From: Chloroflexota bacterium
Lineage (GTDB): Bacteria; Chloroflexota; Dehalococcoidia; Lucifugimonadales; GCA-002694895
Direction: 5' to 3'
Length of the DNA: 8,369 bases
NCBI GenBank assembly: GCA_002694895.1
Contig: NZNN01000008.1
Coordinates: 15,623-23,991 of the forward strand
In this document: one piece after another, positions 2,307-6,720 of the stretch
Position numbering within the stretch: position 1 is the first letter of the stretch
Layout: each line of letters begins with the position of its first letter
Notes under the pieces: model-generated
The model's input: only the letters and a program-made list of their open reading frames with translations
Databases searched by the model: none
What the model was told of the DNA's origin: nothing
Position numbers and translations under genes: made by a program

Positions 2307-2792
2307 TTATTTAATATAAATTAATATTTGATTTAATTTTGGCAATCTATTCCATTGTTTAATTACTAGTCCATCCTGATTTAATAGGAACATGGATGGG
2401 ACTGATTTATGGTTATATATATTGCTGAAATCTTTGCCTTGTAAAGTTGCTATATCATATTGTACAAAATGAATTTTATTCTTATTAATATCGGCTTTTA
2501 ACCTTTTCACGAAAGGTTTATATACTGTACAAGCAGCTCAGTAATTACTATAAAGATAAATTAATGTATTTTGATTATCTATAATTTCACTACTAACATA
2601 ATTATATTTAGAAGAATTATGTTGTGTAATTTTATTAAAAGTGAAAAATAATGCGAAAAATACAAAAACAAATAATGATGCAATTATCAAAATTTTACTT
2701 TTGTATAAATAAGAAAACAAAAGTAATGAAGTTAATAAAAGGAATATACAAATTATTAAAGAATTATAATTAATTAGATGAAAAAGTTTCAT
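2307..2792 (-). CDS. Membrane-anchored thioredoxin-like selenoprotein (UxxC), TGA read as Sec
   Basis: One frame runs from ATG (2792-2790) to TAA (2309-2307), interrupted only by TGA at 2540-2538. Reading that TGA as selenocysteine gives 161 residues. Residues about 11-30 and 34-52 are hydrophobic and form two predicted membrane segments. From about residue 62 to the end is a thioredoxin-like domain: strand TLIYLYSNY, then U85-A-A-C88, helix YKPFVKRLKAD, strand KIHFVQYDI, the cis-Pro motif SVPSMFLL (Pro132) and strand GLVIKQW. U85 sits at the N-terminal, nucleophilic Cys position of CxxC, where Sec is known in thioredoxin-fold selenoproteins. A SECIS-like hairpin follows directly. The start codon abuts the stop of the GGT-like gene with 0 nt between, and no well-placed Shine-Dalgarno is seen, so translational coupling is likely. 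The inferred role is a membrane-tethered thiol/selenol oxidoreductase; partner and topology are unknown. Alternatives are a pseudogene or a sequencing error of TGT/TGC to TGA. Intact sequence on both sides, the exact position and the hairpin argue against these. The selenocysteine machinery (SelA, SelB, SelD, tRNA-Sec) must be elsewhere. Confidence 0.85.
2500..2518 (-). promoter_or_regulatory. Bacterial SECIS-like hairpin for UGA recoding
   Basis: Read on the minus strand, the 19 nt are a perfect 7-bp stem (AACCTTT paired with AAAGGTT) closing a 5-nt loop, CGTGA. The loop starts 27 nt after the UGA and its G is the 28th nt. Bacterial SECIS elements lie within the coding sequence just downstream of UGA, with the apical loop roughly 16-37 nt away and a G in the first two loop positions, often followed by U. 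All of this is met here. A possible lower stem is GCTT (2534-2531) with AAGC (2497-2494), across an asymmetric internal loop. The element overlaps codons 92-98, so coding and structure are both under constraint. SelB binding is inferred from structure only. Confidence 0.75.
2538..2540 (-). other. In-frame UGA predicted to encode selenocysteine (Sec85)
   Basis: On the minus strand this codon is TGA, followed by GCT GCT TGT (Ala-Ala-Cys). It occupies the first position of a thioredoxin C-x-x-C motif. The other four coding frames in the window contain no internal TGA and use TGG for Trp, so a general reassignment of TGA to Trp or another residue is not supported. Every gene whose end is visible stops with TAA. 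Confidence 0.85.
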
Positions 2793-4424
2793 TTAAACTT
2801 TATATACTACGCCTCCACCTCTTGGATCAGATCCTCCTGATAATTCTCCAGATTTTTCATCAATAGCAATTAATTGCGCTCTTGCCATCATAGGATTATA
2901 AGGAAATTGTTCTTGAACAACATCAAATCCTAATTCAGCTAATTTTTCTTTATAATCAGATCTTATTCTTGCTTCCAAAAATACTTTTCCACTTTCAGTA
3001 TGAATCCTTGGAGCTGAAACTGCTTCTGTTGGTGTCATATTGTAATTTATTGTATTAAGTATAGATTGAAATACTGCACTTACAATTACTGCTCCACCAG
3101 GAGCACCACATATAATTACTGGTTTATTATTTTTTAGCACAAGAGTTGGAACCATATTTGATCCTCTAGCTTTCCCTGGAGCAATAGAATTTAAATTTCC
3201 AGGTCGAGGATCAGCTAAATTCATTCCATTATTGTACATAAAACCAAGTCCGGGAGTTATAACACCTGATGCCCATCCAAGTGTATGAGTAATCCCAACC
3301 CAATTTCCTTGTTTATCAACTACATTTACATGAGTAGTGGATCCTTTATCAGTATTTCCTGAATTAGGGATTACGTTATTTTTAATATCTTCAATTTTAG
3401 AATCAATATATTTATCATTTAAAATTTTTTGTAAAACAGGAATATCTACAAACTTTGGGTCAGCATTAAAATCGAGTCTATCTTGGTGAGAAATAGACAT
3501 AGCATTTGATAATATTCGTAAATAATCAAATGATCCGTGTTCTTTTAATTCACTTTGAAAAGGTTTAATTAATTTAAACATCTGCAATACAGACATACCT
3601 GTATTTGGTGGGGGTGGGGAAGATATAACATAATCTAAATAATTAATTTTTAAAGGTTCAACAAAATCTGGTTTATAATTTTTCAAATCTTCTTTTGTAA
3701 CAAACCCACCATTTTTCTCTATATCTTCAATAATAATTTTAGATAAATCACCTTCATAAAATTCTCTTGCTCCATTATCAGCTATACTACTAAGAGAATC
3801 TGCATAATCAGACATATTAATTAATTCACCTAATTTATATACTGATCCATCAGGTTTTGTATATTTTGATTTACTTCCCTCAGATGCTGTTAATCTTTGA
3901 TAAGTATTTGGTTGAAATGGGTTATTATTTTTATCTCCACCAGCATAACCAGTTTGAAAATATTGATCTAAATTAGGACTTACAGTTAATCCTTTCTTAG
4001 CAAGATCGATACTAGGTTGTAATAATTCGTTCCAAGGCATTGTGCAATATCTTTTATGTATTTCTTCAAAAGCAGCTAGCACGGTTGGTGTCATTATGGC
4101 TCTGTATCCAATTTCGCTTCTAAAATCTCTGAATTGAAATAAATTTGATACTTCACTTCTTGTTACTTCATCATTTGCCCACATATTTTCTGTACATTTA
4201 CTACCAGCAGTTCCTGCAAAATTAATTGCTATCAATTTTTGTGAATTACTATCATATATTTGTGCAATTCCCATACCACCCATTCCACACATGAATGGAT
4301 CAAGTATCCATTGTGTAAATGCTGTTGCTAAAGCCGCATCAAACGCATTTCCGCCAGATTCTAATATTTTAGCCCCTGTTTCTCCGGCCAAAGGTTGTGG
4401 ACATGTGATAATTCCATTAGTCAT
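2793..4424 (-). CDS. Gamma-glutamyltranspeptidase-family Ntn-hydrolase with altered substrate pocket
   Basis: This is a 543-residue member of the GGT family (family T3), made as a precursor that normally cleaves itself to expose an N-terminal Thr. The N-terminal part has PLAGETGAKILESGGNAFDA and GMGGMG. The autoprocessing site is Ser362/Thr363 in KGSTTHVNVVDKQGN, which would leave a 181-residue small subunit (E. coli: 190). The oxyanion glycines are Gly443-Gly444 in GAPGGA, and the C-terminal SGGSDPRGGG is typical. By alignment from memory to E. coli GGT, the gamma-glutamyl-binding residues are changed: Arg114 to Ala70, Asn411 to Gly383, Gln430 to Gly400, Asp433 to Leu403, Ser463 to Asn423; Thr409 (Thr381) and Ser462 (Ser422) are kept. 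The PROSITE-type signature is also imperfect (Asn367 where Ser/Thr is usual). The enzyme therefore probably autoprocesses and acts as an amidase or acyltransferase on something other than glutathione. There is no signal peptide; the start is right at the fold, so a cytoplasmic protein is likely. The start lies 1 nt after the ppsA stop and the stop is flush with the next gene. Confidence 0.9.
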   Translation of the reverse strand: MTNGIITCPQPLAGETGAKILESGGNAFDAALATAFTQWILDPFMCGMGGMGIAQIYDSNSQKLIAINFAGTAGSKCTENMWANDEVTRSEVSNLFQFRDFRSEIGYRAIMTPTVLAAFEEIHKRYCTMPWNELLQPSIDLAKKGLTVSPNLDQYFQTGYAGGDKNNNPFQPNTYQRLTASEGSKSKYTKPDGSVYKLGELINMSDYADSLSSIADNGAREFYEGDLSKIIIEDIEKNGGFVTKEDLKNYKPDFVEPLKINYLDYVISSPPPPNTGMSVLQMFKLIKPFQSELKEHGSFDYLRILSNAMSISHQDRLDFNADPKFVDIPVLQKILNDKYIDSKIEDIKNNVIPNSGNTDKGSTTHVNVVDKQGNWVGITHTLGWASGVITPGLGFMYNNGMNLADPRPGNLNSIAPGKARGSNMVPTLVLKNNKPVIICGAPGGAVIVSAVFQSILNTINYNMTPTEAVSAPRIHTESGKVFLEARIRSDYKEKLAELGFDVVQEQFPYNPMMARAQLIAIDEKSGELSGGSDPRGGGVVYKV

Positions 4425-4425
4425 A

Positions 4426-6720
4426 TTAAAATTGTTGCTCTATTCTATAAACTAAATTTCTAGTTGAATCTATACTATCTGGACTAACAGAAACAGATGT
4501 AATGCCCCATTTAACTAATCTTTCAGTAAGATCTGGAAAAAAAGAGGGAGCCTGTCCGCATATAGATGAAGTTATACCTTGTTTATTAGCAGCTGATATT
4601 ACTCTTTCAAGTGCCCACAATATCGAAGGATCTCTTTCATCAAATGATTTTTCAAGTTTTTCGTTGTCTCTATCAACTCCAAGAGTTAATTCAGTTAAAT
4701 CATTAGAACCAATAGAAATGCCATTAATTCCTTCATTTATAAATTGATTTATTAAAATAACATTAGAAGGAACTTCTACCATCATCCAAATTTTGTGTCC
4801 TTTCCCTATAGATATATCATAATTGTTTAAAATTGAAATTACTTCACGTAATTCATTTGGTGTTCTGACAAAAGGGATCATAATAATCAAATTATTATAT
4901 TTTCTTAATACTTGCTTAATGGCATTGACTTCTAATTCAAAAACATCTGTGTCATTAATATACCGTATTGCACCTCTATATCCCATCATAGGATTATTTT
5001 CATCATTTTCAAATAATTCCCCGCCTTTTAAATTCCGGTATTCATTAGTCTTAAAATCTGTTAAACGATAGACAACAGGTCGCTCGCCAAAACTTTCACA
5101 AAATATAGAAATATTATCAGATAATTCTTTAGTCCATTCTTCTGAAGTACCTTCTTTCAATGCTTGTTTTGGATGCTTTCCAATATTAGCAATAATAAAC
5201 TCTGCTCTTAGTAATCCAATACCATCAACATTACGTTCAGATACTTGAGGCGCAGAAATAGGATCAGCTAAATTTACATATATTTTTGTATTGGTTGTAA
5301 ATGAAGATTCTTGATTTTCTTGTTCTTCAGGGATATCCAGTAAACCTTCATATACATTCCCTTCAGATCCGTCTAATGTAATATTTTGTCCATTGCGAAT
5401 TTCTGAAGTTGCGGTTTTACCAGTTTCAGAGTCATAAGCACCAACAACACATGGTACTCCTAATTCCCTGCTAACAATAGCAGCATGACAAGTTCTACCA
5501 CCTTTATCAGTTATAATTCCTGATACAATTCTCATTATAGGAACAAAATCCGGAGTAGTCATTTCTGTAACAAGAATATCACCTTTTTTTACTTGGTCTA
5601 ATTCATTTAAATTTTTTACGATAATTGCTTTGCCTGCTCCATATCCAGGGCTGGCACCAGCTCCTTTAATAATAATATCTGCATTAGAAAAATCTAAGCT
5701 TATTTTTTTTGTATCTACTACACCTCTTGAATAATTTGTTACAGGCCTACTTTGCAATAGATAAATTTGATCATCTTTCATAGCAAATTCTATATCTTGA
5801 GGGAAATTATAATGTTCTTCTATTAAAAGAGCTTGTTGAGCTAATCGTTTTAAATTTTCCACACTAAGTTTAGGTTTTAAACTTTCCTCAGGTGTTAAAG
5901 GAACATTTATGTTTTGATTATTAATATCTGAAAACATTCCAGTATTACCATTTTCATCATTTAATGCAATTTTAAAAGTTTGTTGCATGTGTTTTTGTCT
6001 AACAACTGTTTGTGTGGATTTTTCAATTACATAATAATCAGGTGTTACAATTCCGGAAACTACAGCTTCCCCAAGACCAAATGCTGCTTCAATAACAATT
6101 TTATCAGGATCTAATGTGGTAGGTTCTAATGTAAACATAACACCACTTACGTCTGGTTGTACCATTTGTTGAATTACTACAGACATCCCAGATTTAAAAT
6201 GTGGTATATTTTGACTATTCCGATAAAAGATAGCTCTAGCTTCAAAAACAGATGCCCAACAAGCTTTAATCGATTCTATAAGAGAATTAAATCCTATTAT
6301 GTTTAAATATGTATTTTGTTGTCCAGCAAAAGATGCTTCCATAGAATCTTCAGAAGTAGCTGAAGATCTTACAGCAACTCTTGAAGAACCAATACGCTTA
6401 TATTCTTGTTCAATAGATGAAATAATATCTGAATCAAATGGAGTTTTATTAAACAATTCTTTTATTTGATTAGAAAGTTTTTGAAGTTCATTGATTTTTA
6501 AAGAATTAGAATGTTGAATTAAATTACTGATCTTTTCTTTTAGATTAGATTTGTTTAAAAAATCAAAATATAAGTCTGTACTAATTGCAAATCCTTCAGG
6601 AACATTGATGCCCGAATTAATTAATTCTCCTAAATTTGAAGCTTTACCTCCAAATTTTGAAGTATTAGAAGAATTTAATTTCGAAAGATCTATAATTTGA
6701 GTATTATTTTCAGAGGTCAT
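4426..6720 (-). CDS. ppsA: Phosphoenolpyruvate synthase (pyruvate, water dikinase)
   Basis: PEP synthase converts pyruvate, ATP and water to PEP, AMP and phosphate, the gluconeogenic entry step, in the cytoplasm. At 764 residues it is close to E. coli PpsA (792). Domains in order are: N-terminal ATP-grasp/pyruvate-kinase-like nucleotide-binding domain (GGKASNLGEL at 24-33, RVAVRSSATSEDSMEASFAG at 114-133, DIEFAMKDDQIYLLQSRPVT at 309-328); swivelling phosphohistidine domain with His412 in GGRTCHAAIVSREL (E. coli His421); and C-terminal PEP/pyruvate TIM barrel (GLLRAEF near 502-508, FKTNEYRNLKGG, NPMMGYRGA, MMVEVPSN, GSNDLTELTLGVDRD). Cys721 in SICGQAPS matches the catalytic proton donor (E. 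coli Cys751). These are the marks of PpsA rather than PPDK or enzyme I. It is the first gene of the operon and follows a promoter-like sequence only 8 nt before its ATG, suggesting a leaderless or near-leaderless transcript. No Shine-Dalgarno is visible. The C-terminus ends 1 nt before the GGT-like gene. Everything needed for catalysis appears intact. Confidence 0.95.
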   Translation of the reverse strand: MTSENNTQIIDLSKLNSSNTSKFGGKASNLGELINSGINVPEGFAISTDLYFDFLNKSNLKEKISNLIQHSNSLKINELQKLSNQIKELFNKTPFDSDIISSIEQEYKRIGSSRVAVRSSATSEDSMEASFAGQQNTYLNIIGFNSLIESIKACWASVFEARAIFYRNSQNIPHFKSGMSVVIQQMVQPDVSGVMFTLEPTTLDPDKIVIEAAFGLGEAVVSGIVTPDYYVIEKSTQTVVRQKHMQQTFKIALNDENGNTGMFSDINNQNINVPLTPEESLKPKLSVENLKRLAQQALLIEEHYNFPQDIEFAMKDDQIYLLQSRPVTNYSRGVVDTKKISLDFSNADIIIKGAGASPGYGAGKAIIVKNLNELDQVKKGDILVTEMTTPDFVPIMRIVSGIITDKGGRTCHAAIVSRELGVPCVVGAYDSETGKTATSEIRNGQNITLDGSEGNVYEGLLDIPEEQENQESSFTTNTKIYVNLADPISAPQVSERNVDGIGLLRAEFIIANIGKHPKQALKEGTSEEWTKELSDNISIFCESFGERPVVYRLTDFKTNEYRNLKGGELFENDENNPMMGYRGAIRYINDTDVFELEVNAIKQVLRKYNNLIIMIPFVRTPNELREVISILNNYDISIGKGHKIWMMVEVPSNVILINQFINEGINGISIGSNDLTELTLGVDRDNEKLEKSFDERDPSILWALERVISAANKQGITSSICGQAPSFFPDLTERLVKWGITSVSVSPDSIDSTRNLVYRIEQQF

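Follow-up and report, generated by a model that had tools for sequence, protein, structure and literature searches.

A predicted selenocysteine-containing thioredoxin-fold protein with a two-helix membrane anchor in Chloroflexota

Organization of the locus

The window – the whole stretch of 8,369 nucleotides analyzed here – carries on its minus strand three tightly packed genes: a PEP-synthase-like gene (ppsA), a gamma-glutamyltranspeptidase-like gene (GGT) and a gene for a thioredoxin-fold protein, here named TrxU (Table 1). The first junction reads TAA-T-ATG and the second TAAATG, the stop codon of GGT directly abutting the ATG of TrxU. A large convergent gene with Sortilin-Vps10 and BNR-type repeats (plus strand, 1-2304) stays beside this trio in the genus. 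Searches of the window against Rfam at gathering thresholds gave no match, and nothing was found by PADLOC or in plasmid records.

In the ORF listing TrxU appears as two minus-strand ORFs of the same frame, one of 84 aa beginning with ATG (2538-2792) and one of 67 aa beginning with GTG (2307-2510). Translation of the window gives a single frame of 161 aa (2307-2792) if the TGA at 2538-2540 is taken as a residue. The first-pass annotation had described two ORFs joined through a single TGA, which ordinary ORF calling would report as separate peptides of 84 and 67 aa: exactly these two ORFs, and the frame that unites them, were recovered. The active site of the read-through product is NYUAAC, in which U85, derived from the TGA, stands at the attacking position of the CxxC motif, as had been claimed.

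Residues 68-144 match the Pfam thioredoxin model (PF00085) with 29.1 bits (cut-off 23.5), and residues 85, 88 and 132 are invariant in an 18-row alignment when U is counted as C. The predicted structure consists of two helices (residues 2-30 and 33-56) followed by a thioredoxin fold; mean pLDDT is 80.6, with values of 87-92 in blocks 71-160 and of 49-79 across the helix region. A Foldseek search of the PDB with this structure returned thioredoxins as its best matches (top match 7xao_A, E 6.3e-6). The marks of the thioredoxin superfamily – the fold, a C(U)xxC motif and a cis-Pro – are all present, and the expected architecture, an N-terminal pair of membrane helices with an intact fold and cis-Pro after the TGA, is what the predictions return. 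Close to the N terminus lies an NxxS motif, found in 79 of 80 family members.

Table 1. Coordinates of TrxU, its parts and the adjoining genes in the window
Feature	Position	Strand	Basis
TrxU as read through the TGA (161 codons and a stop codon), with a predicted pair of membrane helices and a thioredoxin domain	2307..2792	-	ORFs, Pfam, predicted structure
In-frame TGA, predicted to encode Sec at residue 85, where UxxC begins	2538..2540	-	Comparison with relatives
SECIS-like hairpin, bases 23-41 (T of TGA counted as 1)	2500..2518	-	Fold and pair conservation
Predicted membrane helix 1, residues 2-30, conserved NxxS near start	2703..2789	-	Predicted structure and alignment
Predicted membrane helix 2, residues 33-56	2625..2696	-	Predicted structure
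Thioredoxin domain, residues 68-144	2361..2591	-	PF00085 match
C88, predicted resolving cysteine	2529..2531	-	Invariant in 18-row alignment
P132, cis-Pro position	2397..2399	-	Invariant in 18-row alignment
Gamma-glutamyltranspeptidase-like gene, directly upstream of TrxU	2793..4424	-	Pfam; order kept in G000-G003
PEP-synthase-like gene (ppsA), presumed first gene of the operon	4426..6720	-	Pfam; gene order

The TGA codon in relatives, its hairpin and the selenocysteine machinery

Relatives were sought in 60 genomes: those of the genus (five genomes, G000-G004, G000 being that of the window) and of its order, which is possibly the marine SAR202 group. The read-through protein was matched 29 times, in 21 of the genomes; a single internal TGA lies in 23 of these matches, five are stop-free and one has a TAA. 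The TAA match and two of the stop-free matches were rejected as family members, being ordinary WCGPC thioredoxins that adjoin tRNA-Sec. The remaining three stop-free matches belong to relatives that have the two helices and Cys instead of the TGA (CGMC in G021, CAMC in G055, CVAC in G056). Six of the 23 TGA matches (L023 and the five distinct loci L025-L029) come from shorter relatives that resemble lipoproteins and lack the helix hairpin.

The shorter relatives include a second Sec-type thioredoxin in the window's own genome (L025, 1243-1824, plus strand, G000:C19; YLYADWUAEC), in which an N terminus that by eye is lipoprotein-like replaces the two helices; its relatives are L023 and L026 to L029, and in G035 the lipoprotein-type gene L026 lies directly after the two-helix gene. 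About 1.5 kb downstream of its two-helix gene, G030 encodes a further protein that resembles lipoproteins and TlpA and whose frame contains a TGA (FLSKYUGTC; L106, 10111-10662, plus strand, G030:C9).

The order was then searched with a profile in 250 genomes. A subset of the loci matched gave 97 distinct sequences, from which three ordinary WCGPC thioredoxins were dropped. The resulting 94 members comprise 83 that are full-length (from 80 genomes) and 11 that are short: residue 85 is encoded by TGA in 53 and by a Cys codon in 30 of the full-length members, and the short members divide into eight TGA and three Cys forms. Both forms occur together in G130 and G142. All 94 members have U or C at the site, although this count required the [UC]xxC motif and other residues could not appear in it; the 83 full-length members all span the site, and none of these was dropped. 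An in-frame TGA at the redox position, replaced by Cys in homologues, is a pattern by which bacterial selenoproteins are recognized. It had been said beforehand that finding TGA or Cys in homologues at this position would support the reading and that homologues lacking any redox residue there would speak against it: cases of the former kind are many and, within the motif-selected set, there are none of the latter. A sequencing error at 2538-2540, raised in the same place, is ruled out since 53 of the 83 full-length members share the TGA at that codon.

In two Cys-form members (L155, G146:C5; L166, G145:C5) the match passes over a TAG codon that precedes the active site; these are perhaps decaying copies or assembly errors.

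The distribution of the two forms was mapped onto a maximum-likelihood tree of the 80 full-length members that start at profile position 4 or earlier. The Sec/Cys label needs seven changes on this tree, six of them forced by well-supported branches (shuffled labels need about 24 on average). Several branches are long and the root is not determined, so no direction is claimed for the changes. In a sample of 400 genomes from the phylum, 51 matches were obtained in 48 genomes at E 1e-18 (41 with one TGA, 10 stop-free). Forty-four of these (38 TGA, 6 stop-free) lie outside the order and the class of the window, and none of the matches listed comes from a genome of the same class. Sixteen of the 44 loci were read in detail and have TGA (11) or Cys (5) exactly at the site. 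Judged by these matches, the family extends well beyond the window's order within Chloroflexota.

Directly behind the TGA lies a SECIS-like hairpin in which bases 23-28 pair with bases 36-41 (the T of TGA being 1). In the window the hairpin is AACCUUUCGUGAAAAGGUU (2518 to 2500); the 48 nt around it fold with -10.4 kcal/mol (z -2.26), and five of 200 shuffles were as good. Because the hairpin stretch codes for protein, expected numbers of pairs were obtained by resampling synonymous codons while keeping each protein. Among the 53 full-length TGA members 276 of 318 pairs are formed, compared to 204.0 expected (sd 6.2; maximum of 400 resamplings 220), and among the eight short TGA members 33 of 48, compared to 23.9 (sd 2.5). 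For the 30 Cys members the observed number (90 of 180) resembles that predicted (85.5, sd 4.1). Dereplication leaves this result in place: 157 of 186 pairs against 117.0 expected (sd 4.7) for 31 TGA members, a value reached in none of 1000 resamplings, and 69 of 138 against 66.5 for 23 Cys members, reached in 279 of 1000. Pairs covary in the dereplicated members, both at 27-37 (TA 18, CG 4, GC 2) and at 28-36 (GC 13, AT 8, TA 3, CG 2). The loci outside the order, which are independent of the definition of the hairpin, give raw counts of 58 of 66 pairs in 11 TGA members and 11 of 30 in five Cys members.

By these comparisons the hairpin is kept beyond the demands of the protein in TGA members and is absent in Cys members. 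A SECIS hairpin directly behind the TGA that is lost with Cys is a second pattern of bacterial selenoproteins, to which 11 of the 53 TGA members are an exception: six pairs are formed in 34 members and five in eight, but four or fewer in these 11 (seven in family group f28, three in f18, one in f41), which may use another hairpin register. The G at base 31 of the loop was rejected as evidence. It is present in 28 of 31 TGA members but also in 17 of 23 Cys members, where it starts a Val codon, and is for this reason worthless as a mark of the TGA form.

Comparison of G000 with G001 gives a dN/dS of 0.08 before the TGA and of 0.14 after it; on these values both halves of TrxU are under purifying selection.

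The first-pass annotation had asked for the sel genes in the source genome, and here the outcome is divided. Both selC and selB are present: a tRNA-Sec at C31:18815-18908 (58.1 bits, gathering threshold 47) and selB at C38:1565-3415 (260.9 bits, cut-off 242.25). Since the tRNA-Sec family score alone is unspecific (five of 14 control genomes exceed the cut-off), the anticodon was checked with ARAGORN, which gives TCA. However, neither selA nor selD exceeds its cut-off in this assembly, which is 65% complete; congeners carry them (selA in G001-G003, selD in G002-G004). Three matches to PF03841, the SelA family, were rejected as selA: they score 33-41 bits (cut-off 22.8), yet only 36-43 against TIGR00474, where 267.9 are needed, and are read as other PLP enzymes. 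Of the 60 relatives, 17 have genomes with the TGA form. All 17 exceed the cut-off for selB, 16 for selA (the exception is G000) and 14 for selD (the exceptions are G000, G001 and G040). The four Cys-form genomes include two with Sec machinery (G021, G055) and two, G031 and G056, in which selA, selB, selD and tRNA-Sec are all below cut-off.

Two further observations concern selenium genes in the relatives. Matches to selD over cut-off number 48, in 46 of the 60 genomes, and a single in-frame TGA occurs in each of them; SelD, too, seems to be a selenoprotein in those relatives. In the window's genome a WCGPC thioredoxin gene lies just upstream of tRNA-Sec on the same strand (L117, G000:C31; tRNA-Sec at 3815-3909, minus strand), a pair that recurs in at least 15 genomes, this one included. 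The linkage of thioredoxin and selC may reflect the reduction of selenium for Sec synthesis.

Topology, proposed function and alternative readings

We propose that TrxU is one gene for a membrane-anchored thioredoxin-fold protein in which UGA is read as Sec, and that the product is likely an outward-facing UxxC thiol-disulfide oxidoreductase; we put the probability of this reading at roughly 0.82. Its basis is sequence comparison: the read-through frame, the exchange of TGA and Cys, a hairpin found with TGA only, purifying selection on both sides of the codon, and the genes for tRNA-Sec and SelB. SelB on the hairpin would bring Sec-tRNA, and the in-frame UGA of the mRNA would be decoded as Sec. 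The selenolate of U85 would then attack a disulfide or other oxidised substrate, with C88 as the resolving residue; for TrxU the reducing direction is the more likely.

The predicted orientation comes from the distribution of charges. Over the same 80 members as in the tree, the turn between the two helices contains 197 K/R and 11 D/E; the N-tail, its first one to three residues left out (congeners begin MK), contains 2 K/R and 32 D/E; and the ten residues past helix 2 contain 67 K/R and 80 D/E. According to the positive-inside rule, positively charged loops lie inside. The K/R-rich turn would thus be inside and the thioredoxin domain outside.

A Sec thioredoxin with a cytoplasmic domain, reduced by ordinary thioredoxin reductase, has one observation in its favor: none of the five draft genomes of the genus gave a match to DsbD_TM, VKOR or DsbB, so that an outside domain would be without a known electron partner there. 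Across the 60 relatives the three models exceed their cut-offs in 13, 8 and 4 genomes, respectively, and in the 17 TGA-form genomes in 3, 0 and 1, with none of the three found in 13 of the 17: no common membrane partner is visible. However, because the genomes are drafts, such absences are weak evidence, while the K/R-rich turn, the nearly uncharged N-tail and the balance of charges past helix 2 all speak for both ends being outside. We therefore consider a cytoplasmic domain unlikely. A bolder version of the outward-facing reading would make TrxU a Chloroflexota-wide, self-contained membrane redox module, in which the helix hairpin with its NxxS directly couples the Sec domain to a membrane electron carrier – a quinone, for example – and takes the place of DsbD, VKOR and DsbB where these are not found; we regard this as improbable. 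Either way, an outward-facing TrxU raises a testable question, namely what its electron source is in genomes where DsbD, VKOR and DsbB are not found. If the topology is true, Dehalococcoidia and other Chloroflexota would carry out selenium chemistry at their cell surface.

A narrower role is conceivable from the position of the gene: TrxU could serve specifically the GGT-like and ppsA-like enzymes of the operon instead of acting as a general oxidoreductase, as the TAAATG junction and the conservation of gene order in G000-G003 might suggest. Yet among 37 loci compared, ppsA-GGT-TrxU with the convergent gene of about 1,068 aa is found in those four genomes only, all of one genus; at the remaining 33 loci this order does not occur and TrxU has other neighbors. 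No family-wide shared neighbor was seen in the 37 loci; we therefore do not assign TrxU to GGT or PEP metabolism, and a dedicated partnership is highly improbable. The suggestion that the place behind ppsA and a GGT-like gene may be new holds insofar as the order exists and is kept; on this comparison it characterizes the genus rather than the family.

Two readings deny that the TGA is Sec at all. In the first, TGA encodes tryptophan in the lineage (code 4), the site is YWAAC and there is no catalytic Sec. W does stand at the site in 24 close relatives from a metagenomic protein collection (the codon behind the W was not seen), which is what gene calling under code 4 would produce; more distant relatives in the collection carry Cys. 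However, the four long genes of the window contain 39 TGG and no in-frame TGA, TGA terminates 50 of 255 ORFs of the window's genome (minimum length 150 aa), the tRNA with anticodon TCA in that genome is tRNA-Sec, and the replacement in genome-derived members is always Cys, never Trp. Apart from the TrxU site, TGA is by these counts a normal stop in this genome, and the chance that code 4 applies is minute. The lack of any TGA stop among 37 stop-containing genes at four loci in the genus (L096, L097, L098, L116) was rejected as a sign of reassignment; given the wider count, it is due to chance.

The second reading, a membrane thioredoxin split by a nonsense mutation into remnants or separate small proteins, draws on the two pieces from standard ORF calling and on metagenomic 82-aa N-terminal pieces that end just before the site (P0035, P0036), which any caller treating TGA as stop yields, and is scarcely credible, given that the same TGA recurs in numerous families within the order as well as in other classes, and given the constraint downstream of it (dN/dS 0.14) and the conserved hairpin.

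If TrxU is a single selenoprotein gene, as we propose, then routine gene calling halves, or gives a false Trp to, a family spread over a large and mostly uncultured phylum. The roughly seven natural switches between Sec and Cys provide material for studying what makes a lineage retain Sec or lose it.

Relation to known thioredoxins and selenoproteins

To our knowledge, the Sec thioredoxin of the published inventory is a soluble protein. It is listed there as PF00085 with UxxC (Table 1 of PMC13188914) and shares with TrxU the thioredoxin fold and Sec at the attacking position of UxxC; the difference is the two-helix membrane hairpin that TrxU adds ahead of the domain. TrxU scores 25.4 bits against the thioredoxin equivalog TIGR01068, far under the cut-off of 96.8, and the ordinary thioredoxins of TrxU genomes are separate WCGPC proteins.

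Among membrane-associated thioredoxins, the TxlA/slr1796 type comprises membrane-anchored extracytoplasmic proteins. Its model (NF038096) shows weak similarity to 12 of 18 members (best E 1.7e-5; P0012 scores 22.2 bits, cut-off 140) and no match to the window protein up to E = 1. The C-terminal domain of DsbD (NF001419) is weakly similar to the thioredoxin end of 11 of 18 members (P0002, 13.4 bits, cut-off 330); the window protein gave no match, and the DsbD transmembrane domain is absent from the TrxU gene. The GOS_C selenoprotein (NF045500), described in PMC2398784 as marine, with UxxC and a thioredoxin-like fold, has no match in the window protein or in six relatives scanned. NCBIfam holds no dedicated model that matches the window protein, and none was seen among the 25 commonest of the 45 families matched by 17 relatives.

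Whether TrxU is undescribed, as the first-pass annotation suspected, can be checked only in part. Titles and abstract openings on Chloroflexota selenium, bacterial selenoproteomes and membrane thioredoxins, with subscription papers mostly outside this scope, contain no description of it. The literature covered also includes PMC1088965, PMC12013277, PMC9312934 and PMC9402790. The 2026 inventory, whose text gives 119 selenoprotein families, has no two-helix or Chloroflexota thioredoxin entry in its complete Table 1 (PMC13188914). These findings, with the missing NCBIfam model, favor the claim; overlap with an older class may count against it. The GOS survey of 2008 (PMC2398784) defines 'Trx-like 3' by cd02950 at E > 0.001 and UxxC, with 212 Sec and 183 Cys sequences. 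Like TrxU, this class is thioredoxin-like, has UxxC and exists in many Sec and Cys forms, and it is commoner in marine samples; compared by description only, it may include the TrxU family. By the domain-plus-motif rule of PMC13188914, TrxU would fall under 'Thioredoxin, PF00085, UxxC'.
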